The notes under the pieces: generated by a model
Seen by the model: only the letters and a program-made list of their open reading frames with translations
Databases searched by the model: none
What the model was told of the DNA's origin: nothing
Position numbers and translations under genes: made by a program
NCBI GenBank assembly: GCA_017992175.1
Contig: JAGOPD010000006.1
Span: 1-64,000 of the forward strand
Length of the DNA stretch: 64,000 nt
Direction of reading: 5' to 3'
DNA from: Candidatus Saccharicenans sp.
GTDB lineage: Bacteria > Acidobacteriota > Aminicenantia > Aminicenantales > Saccharicenantaceae
Shown: piece after piece, positions 1-9,609 of the stretch
How the letters are laid out: each line of letters begins with the position of its first letter
Position numbering within the stretch: position 1 is the first letter of the stretch

Positions 1-3000
1 TACTTTTTGGTCACCAGAGCCGTGGTTCTGACCGTTTTGTCAACTTCGTCAGTATCAAAGATTTCGTATTCTCTAATTGCCAGGCGGTAATCCTTAATTT
101 GTATTCCCTTTGGCAGCTTCAGGGTTCCCTTCCAGATGTATGAACTGGTTTCCTTAGCCTCTGTGGCCTGAGGATTCAAAGTAATAGCCGTACCCTGAAC
201 TGGTTCCCAGCCGAGTTCTTCCGGTAGATTGAACTTTTTAGTCTCCAGGGAGACTTCGACCACGCCTGGGCCACCGGCCGCGTATCCCCGGCTATATGAA
301 ACACCGGCTAAAGTAAAACCTATCTCCGCCCGGTTTGATGGATTAAAGGTAACAGCCAGGTTCCGTTCCGGCAAAATTTGAGCCAGGTTGGTCATCACCA
401 CTTTCGAAAGATGAGCCCCGGGCACCGAGTCTGGCTGAAATCTGGCCAGGGCCAGGCGGATAAATGGGAAATAGGACTGACCGGTATCAAGCTCTAAATC
501 ACAATACCAGAGTCCTCTCTCCCGGTCATATTCCACTTCATGACCAACTGCGACGAATCTTTTTTCCTCCGGCAATTCCAGGAGAGGCAGCCCGGCCATT
601 ATTTCCACGGCCGATGGAAAGGCCTCAGGTAATGGATATTCCTGAGGCCAGGTACTGCCTGATCTCCAGATCGGATCATTTCCCCACATGGTGACATACG
701 GTTTGTATTCTTCGGCCACCGCCGGAATCCTGACCCCTAACTGCGGGGCGACCACCTTTTTTGGGACCTGGGGCCTGGCCTGAGCCTGAACCTGAGCCTG
801 ACGGCTGGTTTCAGTTTGAGGCCTGGTAGCCATGGTAGCCTGGCTGGCCTCCTTTTTTTTCGGGGTTATTGGCAGGCCGGGCGGCAGAATAACGGCCAGA
901 AGTTCTCCTTCTCCCGAAGAATACCAGGGCCTCTCAATATAAACCCGCAAAGCACTCTTTCTGGTACTCCTCACTTGATTCCCGGCCCTATTCCTCTCCC
1001 ACTTGAAAGATGGAATGACATAGGCGATTTTGGGCATGGCCGGTGGAGCTGAGTTTAAAACTTTGACTTCGGCTGGCTCGCTCCTTCTGGTGTAACCTGT
1101 TTCTTCCGCCAGTTCATTGGCCGGGAATTGTTCCTGATATCTGGTGGTTGAAATCAAGCTATAATTGACCCGCCTGAACTTAGTATCTCCAAATTCGTGA
1201 CGGTAAACCGGAGTCCTGGGCACAACCGCCATAGAGGTGACCATGGGCCTTGGCACCTGTCGCTGACCATCAGAATCCTCAGTCCGGTTTTCACCTGGCC
1301 GGGGAGTAAATGAGATTGATTTCATCTCAGGAGTAACGGTTAATTCCAGAACGTGGGCCTTACCCTCAATAACTTTTGGTTCCGGCTCGTTTAAATAATC
1401 AACAGGCTCCTGCCAGCTGGCCAGCAGTTCCACTTTGGAAGTGCTGTGACCGTGAATTTCATATTGGCCGTAAAGCGTAGCTGAAGTCTGGCCGTAACTC
1501 TTTTGGGCTTCCAGAGACAAGCAAACAGGCCGGCCAACCGGCTGAACAGTAGCATGAATTAAAGTTAACTCCCGGAAGGGAGTCATCAACCAGTTTTTCC
1601 CCTGAGCAGAAATCGTCTTGATTCTGGTTAAATCAATCTTTGGTACCTGGAGAGTTTTTAAGGTCTGGACCTGACCTTCAGGCAGGCCCCGGGGCGGTTT
1701 GAGGACTTTGGGCGGCATTATTCTTTCTGGTTTTTCCAGCCAGCGGTAGAGTCCCTGAATTTCAAGAAATCTTTCAGGAAAATAGCAACTGAGGCGCAGG
1801 GTGACTGATTCCCCCTTTTTAAGATAGACAGTCAGCACCCGGGAAGAATCAGACCAGCGAGCAGGCTGGCTGCCTTCTTCAAGCCTCAACCGGAACGGCC
1901 GGAAATCAGGCCAGTCACCGGTAAAGGGAATCAGCAGCGGATCCGGTGCTCCGTAAGGTAAGCCGCGAAGACAAACGCCTCTGGCCCAGGGATCCGGAAA
2001 ATAGGGAAGCTCAAGTTGGTCCCCCGGTTCCAGCTCATTAAACTGACCGCTATCTTTCCGGCAAATCAATGAATAGACTTCCGGCTTTAAACCTGTTCCA
2101 CTATCCAACATTCCATGAAGCTCGGTATCAAATTGAGAAGTTTTGGGTGCAGCGACATGCCGGTCAGAAGCTTGAGAGGTTGGCTCAGTATCTTTTTCGA
2201 TTGACTCATTAAGGCTCTTAATGACCAGATGATCAACAGTCTCTCCAGCTTTTGGTTCTTCTCTGGGAACAATAACTGGAGAGAGCACTGGATCAAAGCG
2301 GGTGAAGGTGAAAGGCGGCTTATCTGGACCAGGAATCGCCTGGCTGTCATCATTGTTGTCCAGCGGCTGGCTGTTCCCCGCCAGATCGACCGTCCTGGCT
2401 CTTAGCCGGTAACCAGTGCCATAGCGGAGCCTGGGCAGTGATTGGAGAACAGGCTTAAACTTAGTTTCCAGCAAAAAATCACTCAGGGCCTGGTTTTCAA
2501 TGGCAGCCGGTTCATCCTTTGGATCAATGGTTTTTCCCGGTCTGGGTGCCACCAGACTCCAGCCATCCCAGTGAAATAGAGCTTCATGAACATAAATATC
2601 ACCGGTTGATTCATCAACTGCCTGGGTGACTGCCGGCGAAACAAAACCTTCATCTTCCAGACTGATTTCTTTATCCAGCCGGACAAACCGGTAGGTTCCC
2701 GCTCTCTGGCAGAGCGAATGCCATTTTCGGGATTGATCATCCCAGACATCAAACCGGTAGCCCTGAATCAGGTCTTCGGCATAAAGGGTAATTTCTTTCT
2801 TCCGGGAGAAGTCATCATTAAGGGTCACGGCTTTGGCCAGGATTTGAGCTATATTCTGCGCCTGTTCATTTCTGATGACTCCCAGACCGCTGGAGCGCAG
2901 GGCCGGCAGCTCGGCTTTTTCTTTTGTTTCGGCGCTATCAGCCAGGTCAGCCGTCTTGAGGGCGACGGCGTCCACATCGAGTTGCACCAGGTCATATCTT

Positions 3001-3965
3001 TCCTCATCGGCCAGATTTAAGAAGCCATTGACTGCTTCTGGCGGCTTCTGGCTGGAGGCAGCTTCAAAAATTCCCCGGGAGGAATCATAATTATAAGCAG
3101 TCCGCGGGTTATCATCAGTCCGGCCAGCTGGAATCAATTTAATCCAGCCGCTGGCCGGAAAATCAGCCGGAACATCCACTTCAAAATCAATGACCAGACC
3201 GAGCAACCTCATCAGGGCTGGATAGCTGGTCAGAAAAGCCAGGGCCTGGTGAAAATCAATTTGAGGCCGGGTTATGGGGATCCTCTGGACGATAGGCTGC
3301 CTGGTCTTAGGGTCAACTATAATCTTGTTTTTTGGCTTATAGAATTCTCTCAAGAGGTAAAAATCCTTGGGAGGCTCGGGTAAGGGCGAGATCTGAACTG
3401 CTTTGAATTTCTGGCCCTCGGCTTCCCGCCTGACGGACTGAGCCATAACTGGCTGGGTAGTCTTAAGCTGGACAGTCCTGGCCAGGCGTAAATCAGTAAT
3501 GGGTTTAAGACGGATTTGAGCCAGGCCATCAGTGTGGAATACTTTGTCCATTGGCGGCGGCTCTTCCGGAGATTCAGCCGCCACATTCAGATACTGAGCA
3601 GCCACAAAGGTCAGAACATTTTTTACCGGATAAGAGACCACCAGATTTTTAGTGAGATCAGCCATCTCAAAGGAAACAACTAGAGCTTCCGGCTTGAAGA
3701 TAGCCTGCCAGAGTTCGAGTTCCGGGGCAGCGGAGGCTCTCTTAATCTCCAGCGGTTCTCTATCTTTCTTCTTATCATAGATAACTTGAAAGTTGAGAGC
3801 TTTGACGGTTTCCGGCCAGTTCAGAATTTCTGGAAAAAGATTCAGGCTGGGTGTTTTCCCGCCCCGTTCGTCCTCCAGCCGGATGGAAACAGCGGCTGAA
3901 AATTGTAGCTTCCCGTTCTTGACCCCATTAGGGCACAAGGTCCACATAACCGTTGATTTGGGCAT
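1..3965 (-). CDS. Very large protein of unknown function, 3' end beyond the window
   Basis: An open frame runs without a stop from ATG 3965 to the left edge, giving at least 1321 residues. The start is one base after the TAA of the upstream gene and is preceded by GGGGGAGG, so the two genes are translationally adjacent. I see no signal peptide, no membrane segment and no catalytic motif I recognise. The N-terminus has a WTLCPNG stretch around residues 8-14. Further on there is a GYRLRARTVDLAGNS segment, a domain rich in beta-type sequence, and a Q/A/P-rich linker (QAQVQAQARPQ) that appears to separate domains. The composition (many short hydrophobic-polar alternations, Pro and Gly turns) suggests an all-beta extracellular or surface protein. 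Function is not assigned. Its pairing with a Tat-exported partner suggests both act outside the cytoplasm, but this is inference. Confidence 0.85.
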   Translation of the reverse strand, partial: MPKSTVMWTLCPNGVKNGKLQFSAAVSIRLEDERGGKTPSLNLFPEILNWPETVKALNFQVIYDKKKDREPLEIKRASAAPELELWQAIFKPEALVVSFEMADLTKNLVVSYPVKNVLTFVAAQYLNVAAESPEEPPPMDKVFHTDGLAQIRLKPITDLRLARTVQLKTTQPVMAQSVRREAEGQKFKAVQISPLPEPPKDFYLLREFYKPKNKIIVDPKTRQPIVQRIPITRPQIDFHQALAFLTSYPALMRLLGLVIDFEVDVPADFPASGWIKLIPAGRTDDNPRTAYNYDSSRGIFEAASSQKPPEAVNGFLNLADEERYDLVQLDVDAVALKTADLADSAETKEKAELPALRSSGLGVIRNEQAQNIAQILAKAVTLNDDFSRKKEITLYAEDLIQGYRFDVWDDQSRKWHSLCQRAGTYRFVRLDKEISLEDEGFVSPAVTQAVDESTGDIYVHEALFHWDGWSLVAPRPGKTIDPKDEPAAIENQALSDFLLETKFKPVLQSLPRLRYGTGYRLRARTVDLAGNSQPLDNNDDSQAIPGPDKPPFTFTRFDPVLSPVIVPREEPKAGETVDHLVIKSLNESIEKDTEPTSQASDRHVAAPKTSQFDTELHGMLDSGTGLKPEVYSLICRKDSGQFNELEPGDQLELPYFPDPWARGVCLRGLPYGAPDPLLIPFTGDWPDFRPFRLRLEEGSQPARWSDSSRVLTVYLKKGESVTLRLSCYFPERFLEIQGLYRWLEKPERIMPPKVLKPPRGLPEGQVQTLKTLQVPKIDLTRIKTISAQGKNWLMTPFRELTLIHATVQPVGRPVCLSLEAQKSYGQTSATLYGQYEIHGHSTSKVELLASWQEPVDYLNEPEPKVIEGKAHVLELTVTPEMKSISFTPRPGENRTEDSDGQRQVPRPMVTSMAVVPRTPVYRHEFGDTKFRRVNYSLISTTRYQEQFPANELAEETGYTRRSEPAEVKVLNSAPPAMPKIAYVIPSFKWERNRAGNQVRSTRKSALRVYIERPWYSSGEGELLAVILPPGLPITPKKKEASQATMATRPQTETSRQAQVQAQARPQVPKKVVAPQLGVRIPAVAEEYKPYVTMWGNDPIWRSGSTWPQEYPLPEAFPSAVEIMAGLPLLELPEEKRFVAVGHEVEYDRERGLWYCDLELDTGQSYFPFIRLALARFQPDSVPGAHLSKVVMTNLAQILPERNLAVTFNPSNRAEIGFTLAGVSYSRGYAAGGPGVVEVSLETKKFNLPEELGWEPVQGTAITLNPQATEAKETSSYIWKGTLKLPKGIQIKDYRLAIREYEIFDTDEVDKTVRTTALVTKK

Positions 3966-3966
3966 C

Positions 3967-6900
3967 TTAATCCTCCCCCTGAGCAAAAGCCTGACAGTAA
4001 GCCAGCCAGTCGTCTTCAGCCATCAGGTCGCAGAAAAGCGGTGGCGGTGAGGCACCAAATTCTCTCTCGACCTGTAAAGTCACTTTCTTGCTGAAGAACA
4101 GAATCTTAATCTTGACCGTGAGCGAAGCCTGGCCATAGACTTTATTACCCTGCTCCTGGTAAGTCAGAGAGAGATAAAACTCGGCTGAAATACTGATCAA
4201 ACCGAGAACATCAAGTTCTCCTGTGCAGCGGACATAACCGGTAATGGTAATGGACTGCTCTTCATATTTAAAATAAATTCCAGCCATTAAGGTTATTCCG
4301 CCGCTGGCCACTCCCAGATTCATGGCAAAGCTGCCGCCAAACTCCAGAGAGCCTTCTACCAGTTTAATGCCATCCGGAGAGAGGACCAGAGCAAAAAATC
4401 CACCGCCTCCGAACATAGCAACTGTTAACAGGAAGGGATTGTTTCTTTCATTGAAGGCAAATCTCAAAGAGACAGGGTCACCGGTAAAAGGTAAGGCAAT
4501 CTCTCCCGAGAACTTCAAGTTCTGCATGGAGAAGACACCAAAAGCTACATCTGGTATGGCTAAGCCATAGCCGAGTTTAGCTCCAGCCGCATCAACTTTG
4601 ATCACTGGTTTGCCACCAAACCCACCGTCAGAATCGCTTAAACTGCCAGGAAGAGGGATTCTTTTCAAGAGTTCTTCGATGAACCTTAGCGGACCCTGGA
4701 ATTTTATCGAAGCGATTTTCGGGTCAACATTGGTTTTCTTTCCTTTTTCAGCGGTAAACGTAAACTTAGAGAATTTGACCAGAATAAAGGTAGTAATTCC
4801 CTTAATCAGATCGAGAGTAAAATCAGTTAATTCACCTTTAACCTTGTATGTTGCTTCTTTCCCATTAAAATAGGTCGCAGCTTCAACATTCAGGATCAGG
4901 CTGGATTTAGTCCCATCGCGGTTAGCTATGAAAATCGAAAAATCATGGAGGGTTGGCGTCCATTTAAGGAGAGTCTTAAGGCCAACTGGCAGCTGGCTGC
5001 CGCTTTCGTAAACCGGCTCGGTTTTAATTTTCAGAGCTGCCGACTGGTTCTCGCTGTCCTGACGGCTAAAATCTTCGACCTTATCAACGACATCTTTGAG
5101 CAAAATGCCGCCCAATATCTTGGCTTTGTCGTCAAAGAATTTTTCTGGATAGAACTTACCATCAACTGTGTCCTTTAGAGCTTCTTTTATATCCTTTTCG
5201 TCGAAAACTTTCTTGTCAGGCTCCACCCGAGGACCGGAGACAGTTTCAGGCTGTGGTTCGGCCGAAGCTGAAGAAGAGGTGATCTTTCCTCCTACCGGGC
5301 CAAGAACTCTCGAGAGACCAACTATGGAAAAACTGGGGGTAGCTATGCCACCTGATTTTTCGGCCTGGCCGCCGGCCGCAAAATCCACTAAAGGCAGCGG
5401 ACCCTCTACGATCTGGAGAAAAACTTCTCCTTTGTTTTGAGAAGGGCTGAAGCCATTTTGAATATAAGCATTAGCGTAGTTAACGGCGGTGGTCTCAAAG
5501 CCAACCAGATTTTTGAGAGCTGGAATCGACACGGTGGCCTTTTCCATAACCGGAAAACACATTGGCTGATCCTTGGCCAGGAATTCGTCCTTGGAATAAG
5601 CTGGCTTATCTTCACTTACCTTCCAGCTGATGGATTTAACTTCAAAGGAAGTGTCTTCCTTTTTGTTTTCAGGGGCAAAGGAGATAGCCTGCCCCAGAAA
5701 ATCAGGTTGCCTTCTCAACAGAGAGGCTGAATTATAGGCTTTAGTACTCTCGTCTGCTTTCTCAAAAGCATAACGTCCGGCGACAAAGGCCATCGGCATC
5801 TTAAACTGAACTTCATGCCCTTCCACATCGGTGCCTATAGCCTGAAAGATAAAATCGGCATTGTTGACTCTGGGCCAGAAAGCTTCATCTCCGGCCCCGG
5901 TGATGAGAGCCGTATTGCCGGGCTGATCAATCGGCGGAGTAACCAGGGTGGTCAGTTTAACCTTAGTAAAAGGAATCTCCATTCCCCCCTTAACAGGTTG
6001 CAAAGGGGCAGGAAAGATCCTTTCCGGATCGCGAACCATGATGTATTTTTTCTGAAAAAGATAAGCTACATTCTGTCCGTCCCGGGTTTTGTAGAACTTC
6101 CGTTCTGTAATCTTGACCAGTGAAGCCCGGTGCCCAAAGGGCAGGAGATACCCGGCATAGACAACCTTAACATAGTGATCCCTGCCCATAGTAGCCAGAT
6201 GCTGCCAGGTAATTATCTGCATGGTTTCTTTGGCCAAAGGAGAATTAGGCGGCCAGTTGCCAATAGAATCAAGCCAGGCGCCGAGGGGGCTGAGCATCAG
6301 CCTGTTAACCTTGACAGGCAGAGGCCTGTATTTTGGAGTTCCTGCCAGATTGAAATTGCTGGTTAGATGAACCAGCTGGTGACGGTCATTCTGGTCGAGA
6401 GAGAGCCGCGGCAGGCTGGCGTTATCGTGGGCCGGCCCCTTCAGGTCAGTAAGACTTACATCCGGGGACCAGACAGCTCTGACCGCCAGATAGGGATTAT
6501 CTGCTTCGCTGACTGAACCATCCTCATTCAGGGCAGCCAGTCTGGTATGCCAGAGCTCAGTCCAGCCGTTTATGGAGACAGGGCTGGCTGCATGAACCCA
6601 GACATTGTAAATATTTGGAGATAGGATGAGCCTGTAGGGAAGTTCAATGGCAGTCTGGTGCCTCTCCGGTGGAATAATTCTTAACAAGGCACCGGCTAAC
6701 TGAGCCTGGGCAATTTTGTTCCTCTGGAAATAGGTCTGGGCCGAGGCTCCAGCCACCAGGGCTGAAGAACGTGCGGAGGCTGGAGCAGCCGCAGTTCCAG
6801 TTTTGACTGCTGCTGGCCTGGGAACTGCCTTAGCCGGGAGATCTGGCGGCAGAGCGACTGGCACCAGACTCGGCTGATAAAGCTGCCAGGCTAAAAGCGA

Positions 6901-7392
6901 TTCCAGGGTCAGCGGGATCTCATTGATTTGATCCGGAATAACGAAGCTCAGGCGGGTTGGCCCTGATATTCTGGAAAAGACTGGCGGCAGCCTGGGAGTT
7001 TCTATAGCCTCGCTATCGTTCAGTTCCGGAGTCGTCTCGTAAAAAGCTTCTTCGGCCACACTCTGCGGTGGAAAATGAACAATCATATAACCTGGTTGGT
7101 TGCGGTTTTCTTTGACCAGATGAGGCCTGGGCCGGTCGGCCAGCTTAAAATTAATAAACTCAAAGTCCAGGCAGAGCAGGTCATCCGGTCTCAGAATATT
7201 AAACATCGGCCCGGCTGGACTTATTTCGATTTTCGCCTGTGGAAGTATTTTTTTCTGAATGGTTTTGAGCTGGCCGACGAGGGGCGCAGCTCCCAGGACC
7301 CCGGCATAGGATAAGAATTTTCTTCTGGTTATGGATGGTTTCTTCGATTCCTCATCGGCCTGGTTGGTCTTAACCGGATGAGAATCAGACAT
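3967..7392 (-). CDS. Large Tat-signal protein of unknown function
   Basis: 1141 residues from an ATG preceded by GAAGGAGGG. The N-terminus has a twin-arginine signal: T22-R23-R24-K25-F26-L27 followed by a short hydrophobic stretch (about 28-40), so the folded protein should be exported by the Tat pathway. The middle (roughly 240-480) contains WTELWHTRL and GRDHYVKVVYAGYL-like segments. After an acidic/Ser-rich linker (about 700-730), the C-terminal third is dominated by alternating beta-strand-like sequence with Gly-rich turns (for example MFGGGGFFALVLSPDG), ending with two Cys residues. I recognise no enzyme family. Export by Tat implies either folding with a cofactor or assembly with a partner before export; the gene directly downstream (ending at the left edge) is the obvious candidate partner. 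It has its own promoter in the divergent region 7393-7590. Confidence 0.85.
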   Translation of the reverse strand: MSDSHPVKTNQADEESKKPSITRRKFLSYAGVLGAAPLVGQLKTIQKKILPQAKIEISPAGPMFNILRPDDLLCLDFEFINFKLADRPRPHLVKENRNQPGYMIVHFPPQSVAEEAFYETTPELNDSEAIETPRLPPVFSRISGPTRLSFVIPDQINEIPLTLESLLAWQLYQPSLVPVALPPDLPAKAVPRPAAVKTGTAAAPASARSSALVAGASAQTYFQRNKIAQAQLAGALLRIIPPERHQTAIELPYRLILSPNIYNVWVHAASPVSINGWTELWHTRLAALNEDGSVSEADNPYLAVRAVWSPDVSLTDLKGPAHDNASLPRLSLDQNDRHQLVHLTSNFNLAGTPKYRPLPVKVNRLMLSPLGAWLDSIGNWPPNSPLAKETMQIITWQHLATMGRDHYVKVVYAGYLLPFGHRASLVKITERKFYKTRDGQNVAYLFQKKYIMVRDPERIFPAPLQPVKGGMEIPFTKVKLTTLVTPPIDQPGNTALITGAGDEAFWPRVNNADFIFQAIGTDVEGHEVQFKMPMAFVAGRYAFEKADESTKAYNSASLLRRQPDFLGQAISFAPENKKEDTSFEVKSISWKVSEDKPAYSKDEFLAKDQPMCFPVMEKATVSIPALKNLVGFETTAVNYANAYIQNGFSPSQNKGEVFLQIVEGPLPLVDFAAGGQAEKSGGIATPSFSIVGLSRVLGPVGGKITSSSASAEPQPETVSGPRVEPDKKVFDEKDIKEALKDTVDGKFYPEKFFDDKAKILGGILLKDVVDKVEDFSRQDSENQSAALKIKTEPVYESGSQLPVGLKTLLKWTPTLHDFSIFIANRDGTKSSLILNVEAATYFNGKEATYKVKGELTDFTLDLIKGITTFILVKFSKFTFTAEKGKKTNVDPKIASIKFQGPLRFIEELLKRIPLPGSLSDSDGGFGGKPVIKVDAAGAKLGYGLAIPDVAFGVFSMQNLKFSGEIALPFTGDPVSLRFAFNERNNPFLLTVAMFGGGGFFALVLSPDGIKLVEGSLEFGGSFAMNLGVASGGITLMAGIYFKYEEQSITITGYVRCTGELDVLGLISISAEFYLSLTYQEQGNKVYGQASLTVKIKILFFSKKVTLQVEREFGASPPPLFCDLMAEDDWLAYCQAFAQGED

Positions 7393-7590: not shown

Positions 7591-9609
7591 ATGGTTCAAA
7601 AAGGGCAGCAAAGGGGGTTCAGTCCTGTCCTCGCTGGTCCCCTGAGCGCCTGTTTAAGTGGAGTATTTCTGGGTGAATGGAATGTTATCTTAGAAATTAT
7701 TAAGGGTAAGTCAATTTTCAATTTCTCAGATCTGGCGGGCATCTCTATCTGGCATGGGCTGCTCTGGCTGGTCCTCGGTCTGGCCGCAGGTTTGATCTGG
7801 ACTGTCTGGCTGGCAGTCAGGAGAAAGCCGCCGAAAACAAATTTTTTGGCCTGGTTTATTATCTTCAGTTATTTGGCTATCTGGCTTCTGGGCCAGGGTT
7901 TTATCAATACTTATATTTTCGCCGGCATCTTGAACCGGTCAGCTCTTATTATCAATATTATTCTTTTCGGTCTGGCGGTGACCGGCCTGCTACTGCTCTT
8001 CCTGGCTTTCAGAAAAAAAGCTCCAGCCTTTAATCTCTTCTGGAAAAGTTACCTGACTGCTCATCTGGCTGTTTTACTGGCAGGTTTGGTGGTAATTTTG
8101 ACCCCAGCCAGCTTCCGCCAGAACAAGCTGGTGAATGAAGAACCAGTTCTAACTCCGGCTTCCAGAGAACCAGCCAAAAATGTCATTCTGGTCATCTGGG
8201 ACGCAGTCCGGGCTGATCATTTAAGCTGTTATGGTTATCCTCTGGAGACCTCCCCACATCTTGATAGCCTGGCCAGCCGGGGAATACTATTTGAACAGGC
8301 TATAGCCTCTTCTTCTCATACCGTTGAGTCTGTGCCTTCTCTTCTTTCCTCTACTTTACCCGCTTCCCACCAGATGAATGACATTACCTCTTATCTTCCT
8401 TCTGATCTCATTATTATCCCCCAGGTTTTTAAGGCGATTGGCTACCATACGGCTGCTTTTTCCTTTAATCCGTATTTTTCTCCAGCCTATGGATATGATA
8501 AGGGACTTGATCGCTTTTTTGCTCCAGGCGAATTTTCTATAAAAGCCTATAAAACACTTTTTGGCCATATCCTTGACCGCTCGACTCGCCTGCCGGTAAT
8601 CAGTCAGGGGCTAAAACCAGTTTACCTTTTGAGTCAGAAACTGGCCGCTCTTAGCTTTGGAGAAAGCCAACTGGTCTCAACTGACCCCGGAACGATAACT
8701 TCCAGAATGACCAGCTGGATTAAAAACCATCCCCAGAAACCATTTTTCCTGCTGGCACACCTGGAAGGAGGCCACGCTCCCTATCTGGCCCCGCCCTCTT
8801 TCGTCAAGAAGTTCTGGCCGGGAGAAAACCTGCCAGAGGCCGAAAGCTGGCCAACCACCTTTCCTCAGAGCCTGGGTTTGTTTCTGCCTTTTAGGGAAGG
8901 TCCGGTCCTGGCTGAAGCCGGCCGGCAAAAGATGATAGCTCTCTATGATGCTAAGATCCTTTATCATGATTACTGGCTTGGCCAGTTGATCGAATTTCTG
9001 CGGATGGAAAAGAGATTAAAAGATACGCTTTTTATTGTCACCTCTGATCATGGCGAGGAATTCTATGATCATCATGGCTGGGGACATGGGCATTCCCTTT
9101 ACCAGGAACTCCTTCAGGTTCCGCTCATCATGTCTGGAGAAAGCCTTCTTCCCTCTGGCCTTAAAATCAGCCAGCCGGTCTCCCTGTTAGATTTATTTCC
9201 GACTCTATTTTCCCTGCTGGCCATTAACCAAGCCCCTAACCTGCCTTATTCGCTGCAAGGCCAAGACCTCAGCCGGGCTCTTGACCGGAAAACAGAACCA
9301 GATAGCAAAAGGCTGATCTACTCAGAGCTGACCCAGGGCTCACACCAGGCCTGGTCTCTGCTCGATTTTCCCTGGAAAGTTATCCATTCAGTTTTTGGCT
9401 CGGAGGAAGTGACGGAGCTCTATAATTTAAGAAATGATCCTCAAGAAAAAAATAATCTGGCGGCCGCTTACCCTGAAGAAAAAGAACGGTTACTGCTATC
9501 CCTCCAGGAGATAATCGATCTGGCCAGGCAAAGAGTGTTTAAAAGTCAGCGCCGCTGGGTTAGCCCGGCTGAAAAGGAAAAACTCAGATCCCTTGGCTAC
9601 ATTGATTGA
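7591..9609 (+). CDS. Membrane-anchored sulfatase / alkaline-phosphatase superfamily hydrolase
   Basis: 672 residues. Residues 1-170 hold four or so hydrophobic membrane segments; the rest is a sulfatase-fold domain facing the periplasm. NVILVIWDAVRADHLSCYGY (197-216) provides the first metal-binding Asp (D204). T244 to S250 is the nucleophile region; S247-V-P249-S250 resembles the C/S-x-P-S core of sulfatases but the following Arg is absent. TSDHGEE (D486-H487) and nearby His residues (H395, HHGWGHGH at 493-500) complete the metal site. The layout resembles both type I sulfatases and lipoteichoic-acid-synthase or phosphoethanolamine-transferase relatives, so sulfate ester and phospho-head-group substrates are both possible. 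The absence of the full C/S-x-P-S-R signature makes a true sulfatase less certain. A CDP-alcohol phosphatidyltransferase lies convergent, just downstream. Confidence 0.8.
   Translation: MVQKGQQRGFSPVLAGPLSACLSGVFLGEWNVILEIIKGKSIFNFSDLAGISIWHGLLWLVLGLAAGLIWTVWLAVRRKPPKTNFLAWFIIFSYLAIWLLGQGFINTYIFAGILNRSALIINIILFGLAVTGLLLLFLAFRKKAPAFNLFWKSYLTAHLAVLLAGLVVILTPASFRQNKLVNEEPVLTPASREPAKNVILVIWDAVRADHLSCYGYPLETSPHLDSLASRGILFEQAIASSSHTVESVPSLLSSTLPASHQMNDITSYLPSDLIIIPQVFKAIGYHTAAFSFNPYFSPAYGYDKGLDRFFAPGEFSIKAYKTLFGHILDRSTRLPVISQGLKPVYLLSQKLAALSFGESQLVSTDPGTITSRMTSWIKNHPQKPFFLLAHLEGGHAPYLAPPSFVKKFWPGENLPEAESWPTTFPQSLGLFLPFREGPVLAEAGRQKMIALYDAKILYHDYWLGQLIEFLRMEKRLKDTLFIVTSDHGEEFYDHHGWGHGHSLYQELLQVPLIMSGESLLPSGLKISQPVSLLDLFPTLFSLLAINQAPNLPYSLQGQDLSRALDRKTEPDSKRLIYSELTQGSHQAWSLLDFPWKVIHSVFGSEEVTELYNLRNDPQEKNNLAAAYPEEKERLLLSLQEIIDLARQRVFKSQRRWVSPAEKEKLRSLGYID

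Follow-up and report, generated by a model that had tools for sequence, protein, structure and literature searches.

A pair of adjacent giant genes at a contig edge

The window analyzed here comprises the initial 64,000 nucleotides of a contig of 74 kb from a 63%-complete MAG, which its close relatives place in Candidatus Saccharicenans (Acidobacteriota, order Aminicenantales), a genus that receives only passing mention in the literature searched. At its left edge lie two adjacent minus-strand genes, hereinafter A and B (Table 1), both of which had been picked out in the initial annotation as giant open reading frames of 1141 and more than 1321 residues. Both are indeed present; the left edge of the window is also the edge of the contig and B remains open there, lacking about 15 C-terminal residues, as the B proteins of relatives are 1328–1373 aa long. 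In most of these relatives the C-terminus of B reads KRLVYAET.K..DL. The ATG at 3965 was taken as the start of B, and a TTG at 3986 was set aside, because the resulting N-terminus (MPKSTVMWT) is conserved in relatives.

The junction between the genes, read on the minus strand, consists of GGGGGAGGA (3979–3971), the stop codon TAA (3969–3967), one base and the ATG of B. Thus, the one-base gap and strong ribosome site reported earlier are real, and the gene layout points to co-translation of the two products, as had been proposed. The A proteins of relatives terminate in YCxAF(A/V), with an A–B gap of about 12 to 47 bp. The shorter gap of the window results from the loss of the ancestral stop of A, with the TAG of the nearest relative (G016) being replaced by CAG (3967–3981), which lengthens A by four codons, and these overlap with the ribosome site of B.

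Table 1. Features of the A–B pair and of the tatA genes linked to its plasmid-borne relatives.
Feature	Position	Strand	Remarks
Gene B	3..3965	-	1321 aa before the edge; no export signal; pairs with A at every informative locus
Ribosome-binding site of B, GGGGGAGGA	3971..3979	-	Within the last codons of A; read from the sequence; GGAGG-like site conserved before B in relatives
Gene A	3967..7392	-	1141 aa, 125 kDa; ORF with Tat signal at N-terminus; no family match
C-terminal amphipathic beta meander of A (residues 831–1112)	4057..4902	-	Predicted; consecutive antiparallel strands, mostly of 10–19 residues
Central beta-rich domain of A (residues 393–661), with motif WQHLATMGRDHYVKVVYAGYLLPFGHRASLVKITERKF	5410..6216	-	Best-modeled part; pLDDT mostly 70–90 or above
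Tat signal region of A, SITRRKFLSYAGVLGAAPLVG	7258..7392	-	RR at ~7326–7321; RR-x-FL invariant in 16 homologues; weak Pfam TAT_signal match
tatA genes directly after B, Sinorhizobium/Ensifer plasmids	L132:24535–24702; L136:17576–17710		

Both proteins are alignable over their full length with those of relatives, with identities of 63–91% within the genus and 49–55% in the sister genus. In six pairwise comparisons for each protein dN/dS was 0.05–0.31 for A and 0.05–0.27 for B. Hence, purifying selection acts on both, and these low ratios, together with homologues spanning 91% to about 25% identity, establish A and B as real genes. Long overlapping ORFs of 1793–1904 aa in the GC-rich sister genus were dismissed as shadow frames.

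Upstream of A, a divergently oriented gene (7591–9609) codes for a member of the sulfatase family whose hydrophobic N-terminus probably spans the membrane. Of the relatives, only the closest (G016, G018 and G001) share this gene in this position.

Phyletic distribution and obligate pairing

Searches with A and with B recovered an identical set of 21 genomes, that of the window included, among 99 related ones: 17 of the 19 in the genus, four in the sister genus and none elsewhere. A wider survey of the phylum (396 genomes) yielded 17 positives, confined to seven of 210 genera. Using a degenerate-pattern scan with the A alignment across 84,980 genomes, we found 29 loci, nine of which are distant (~29–35% identity) and belong to Anaerolineae, Cyanobium, Hydrocarboniphaga, Balneolia, Holophagaceae, Pelomonas, Streptomyces, Acidobacteriaceae and Roseobacter. 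Plasmid searches added versions from Cupriavidus, Diaphorobacter, Rhizobium, Streptomyces, Agrobacterium, Sinorhizobium and Ruegeria. Overall, homologues are scattered across Acidobacteriota, Chloroflexota, Cyanobacteria, Balneolota, Actinomycetota and Pseudomonadota, and this patchy spread over both chromosomes and plasmids suggests transfer of the pair between lineages. The pairs from Holophagaceae (Acidobacteriota; L086) and Pelomonas (Burkholderiales; L087) resemble each other far more than they do those of their own phyla, reflecting either a recent transfer or a mis-binned contig.

Regarding the earlier question of whether homologues always occur together, A and B are obligately paired. 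A lies directly upstream of B in 20 of 20 close loci, and immediately upstream of it in each of the 25 distant loci whose flanks are intact; these 25 span six phyla. The exceptions are three loci that end within or just past A; fragments, some of them adjoining transposases, in Paraburkholderia, Bradyrhizobium, Ensifer and Rhizobium Pop5; and two Rhizobium loci, either fragments or very diverged, which match only the end of A and have no recognizable B. Thus, at no informative locus were the two found apart. Distances among the A proteins correlate with those among the B proteins at 0.98 overall and at 0.93 in the distant set, a level reached in none of 2000 permutations.

No neighbor besides A and B is widely conserved across loci, and therefore the pair is itself the unit; a wider conserved gene cluster was ruled out. 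The Saccharicenans copies lie near carAB, a photolyase and a lipoprotein that by eye resembles DUF4382, while elsewhere the flanking genes are unrelated to these. What follows the left edge of the window, a point raised by the initial annotation, can be read from the nearest relative, G016, where B is followed by a convergent DUF4382-like lipoprotein and carAB, with no further members of a cluster. Among distant copies, a VIT/VWA-like protein (again identified by eye) lies near just two, and a patatin or a phospholipase C adjoins two others.

Protein families and predicted structures

Neither A nor B belongs to a named family in any library searched: Pfam, NCBIfam, PHROGs, PADLOC and PDB sequences returned nothing save a weak match of Pfam TAT_signal to A (E 0.045). 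The claim that the pair has no recognized domain has thus held up, and no match to a characterized family emerged that would overturn it. Scanning every member of both alignments gave just weak TAT_signal matches and single coiled-coil-type matches, the latter of which we treat as noise. No member of the A alignment matched P47/OrfX or another lipid-transfer family of Pfam. PADLOC found no family in six A and B proteins, leaving known anti-phage defense systems unmatched. A phage or viral origin was also rejected: neither protein matched PHROGs, B had no match in viral contigs or phage records, and the A model gave no credible match in BFVD. A and B are likewise unrelated to each other (hhalign probability 0.2%). 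A conserved pair of ~2500 residues that spans six phyla and has no family model in the libraries searched constitutes a large blank in bacterial proteomes.

The predicted models bear out the expectation that both proteins are beta-rich. The model of A has a mean pLDDT of 61, rising mostly to 66–93 over residues ~410–620, and its central domain holds many of the residues that are invariant across phyla. Hydrophobic alternation is significant in several strands past residue 937, and a predicted helical tail follows the last strands. B (residues 122–1321; mean pLDDT 63) is modeled as a chain of beta-sandwich-like domains, and the confidence of both single-chain models is modest. Against the PDB, Foldseek weakly matched A to porins, P47 and the triglyceride transfer protein (TM ~0.05–0.31) and B to macroglobulins, arrestins and the insulin receptor (TM ~0.05–0.3), with rmsd mostly ~20 Å or more in both cases. 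Given the low TM and high rmsd, we regard these matches as generic beta resemblance and not homology. Accordingly, while A shares long antiparallel amphipathic strands with outer-membrane porins, P47 and microsomal triglyceride transfer protein, it shows no real superposition on them and no sequence relation to them. Likewise, alpha-2-macroglobulin-like and other chains of Ig-like domains resemble the predicted beta-sandwich chain of B only generically, with TM of ~0.1 and no family signature. The model of A, the confidence of which is modest, also found no match among solved outer-membrane beta-barrels (TM at most ~0.31) and, unlike outer-membrane porins, the A–B pair is also present in the monoderm Streptomyces.

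The amphipathic strands late in A, the porin-like sheets and beta-rich P47 among its weak Foldseek matches, and a patchy distribution that includes conjugative plasmids, as befits an accessory trait, could together be read as pointing to a secreted, two-component membrane-active system, in which the C-terminal meander of A would insert into or coat a target membrane and B would bind the target. However, the TM and rmsd values deprive these fold matches of credibility, neither an immunity gene nor a toxin domain is conserved close to the pair, and its near-universal presence in the genus (17 of 19) would be unusual for a weapon. Hence, we consider a membrane-active role very unlikely.

Tat signals on A and linkage to tatA

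The initial annotation described the pair as partly Tat-exported. A does bear the corresponding signal in the Saccharicenans lineage: across 16 aligned sequences the N-terminus is variable except for the invariant RR-x-FL, which is followed by a hydrophobic stretch, with no clear signal-peptidase site in the Saccharicenans versions. The same type of signal is found on A in G212, G409, Anaerolineae, Balneolia, Roseobacter, Streptomyces NBC_01334, Agrobacterium, R. ruizarguesonis NZLR24, Ruegeria and S. meliloti; those of G212, G409, R. ruizarguesonis and the sister genus went undetected at the script threshold and were therefore read by eye. With the family of the window included, A has a Tat-type N-terminus in eleven sampled groups from five phyla, a plain count of groups. 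The description does not extend to B, as no B examined carries a Tat signal; in every signal-bearing lineage exactly one subunit, A, does so. Moreover, about half of the sampled lineages bear a signal on neither A nor B (e.g., Cyanobium, Pelomonas, Cupriavidus and the Acidobacteriota G220, G169 and G372), and thus export is not universal across the family. The interpretation offered in the initial annotation is supported in part. The translocase itself is available: TatC is encoded in the genome of the window (G000; E 2.5e-70), and a search of 35 genomes found it in 31.

Two plasmid-borne loci offer a further connection to this pathway. On plasmid pC of Sinorhizobium meliloti LMB1, tatA lies 49 bp after B, and on an Ensifer adhaerens plasmid a tatA ORF lies 20 bp after a B that is truncated at its 5′ end, the pair being broken there. 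Both match Pfam TatA_B_E (E 2e-9 and 9e-8). The B proteins of these two plasmids share just 28% identity, and an accidental link at such divergence is unlikely, with the link being seen in two related genera only. It is possible that these genes provide a cargo-dedicated TatA, of which they would offer a natural test if A and B travel together through Tat. TatA paralogues also occur on other rhizobial and Methylobacterium plasmids, none of which adjoins the pair in the loci examined.

The uneven occurrence of the signal may be read in two other ways. One holds that A and B form a cytoplasmic structural complex, to which the Tat signal is a late addition in some lineages. This would be in keeping with the many lineages that have no signal and with the signal-less A proteins of G220, G169 and G372, which begin almost directly at the conserved core. 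Nevertheless, signals on A recur in the eleven groups, tatA is linked to the pair twice, and the invariance of the Saccharicenans signal in 16 sequences is left unexplained; we deem such a complex decidedly unlikely. The other holds that only A is exported, with B serving as its cytoplasmic folding or proofreading partner, which, much like a redox-enzyme maturation chaperone of giant size, would retain A until it is ready for export. Tat demands folded cargo, B never bears a signal and A alone, at 125 kDa, would call for no record cargo size, all of which accord with such a partnership. However, B is larger than A and apparently a chain of beta-sandwich domains, unlike the chaperones known for Tat, which are small, and the pair also occurs in lineages whose A offers no signal for proofreading. 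Accordingly, we regard a chaperone role for B as unlikely.

A proposed hitch-hiker complex

The closest parallels to a signal on one subunit of a pair are the Tat hitch-hiker complexes, such as E. coli PaoABC and the HybOC hydrogenase, which likewise combine one signal-bearing subunit with an adjacent partner gene and for which, as here, folded export is proposed. PaoABC is exported with a signal on PaoA only and, at 135 kDa, is described as among the largest structures that Tat exports, with no upper limit having been determined (PMC4273604). PaoABC and HybOC are cofactor-containing enzymes of up to ~135 kDa. In contrast, A–B has no enzyme or cofactor family, amounts to 275 kDa as a 1:1 pair, reaches a total of ~4800 residues in rhizobia, and has many relatives without a signal. 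The arrangement for transport would thus be of a known kind but on a much larger scale, with A–B being about twice the size of PaoABC, a point that counts against its export.

We therefore favor, with a probability of roughly one half, an interpretation of A and B as a co-translated two-subunit complex that Tat exports in folded form, B being carried along by A as a hitch-hiker. Under this proposal, the proteins would be translated in tandem as subunits of one obligate complex, probably in direct physical contact, whose assembly and folding would take place in the cytoplasm. Where A carries a signal, this complex might leave folded and as a whole through the twin-arginine translocase, with the signal peptide of A, the only one present, presumably serving both subunits. 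Once outside the cytoplasm, be it in the periplasm or on the cell surface, the two may form a beta-rich assembly with a binding or scaffold role and no enzymatic activity, in which the C-terminal amphipathic sheet of A would be a likely docking or hydrophobic-ligand surface; this role is a guess from just the beta content and the absence of enzyme families. In the signal-less lineages, the pair would have to be used in the cytoplasm or be exported by another route. If A and B do travel together through Tat, they would offer a direct test of the size limit on folded cargo.

More tentatively, and with the odds against it, the pair might constitute a mobile, self-contained giant export module that crosses Tat folded, at 275 kDa here and at several hundred kDa in the rhizobial plasmid versions, with its own TatA in some hosts perhaps widening or specializing the pore. 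If so, no larger Tat cargo would be known, and the module would represent a new class of exported bacterial complex.

Variation within A

Many distant A proteins (L082, L085, L090, L096, L122, L125, L128, L129 and L132) have an additional several hundred residues N-terminal to the conserved core, with no Pfam coverage in those checked. The rhizobial versions contain a large insert besides this extra region, and the A of Ruegeria exceeds 3300 aa. On a finer scale, the identity of the window's A to that of G016 falls from ~90% to 60–75% over residues 601–840 (4873–5592), where its identity to G001 is locally equal or higher (60–77%), a shift that, judging from these alignments, has the look of an exchange by recombination between lineages within the gene.
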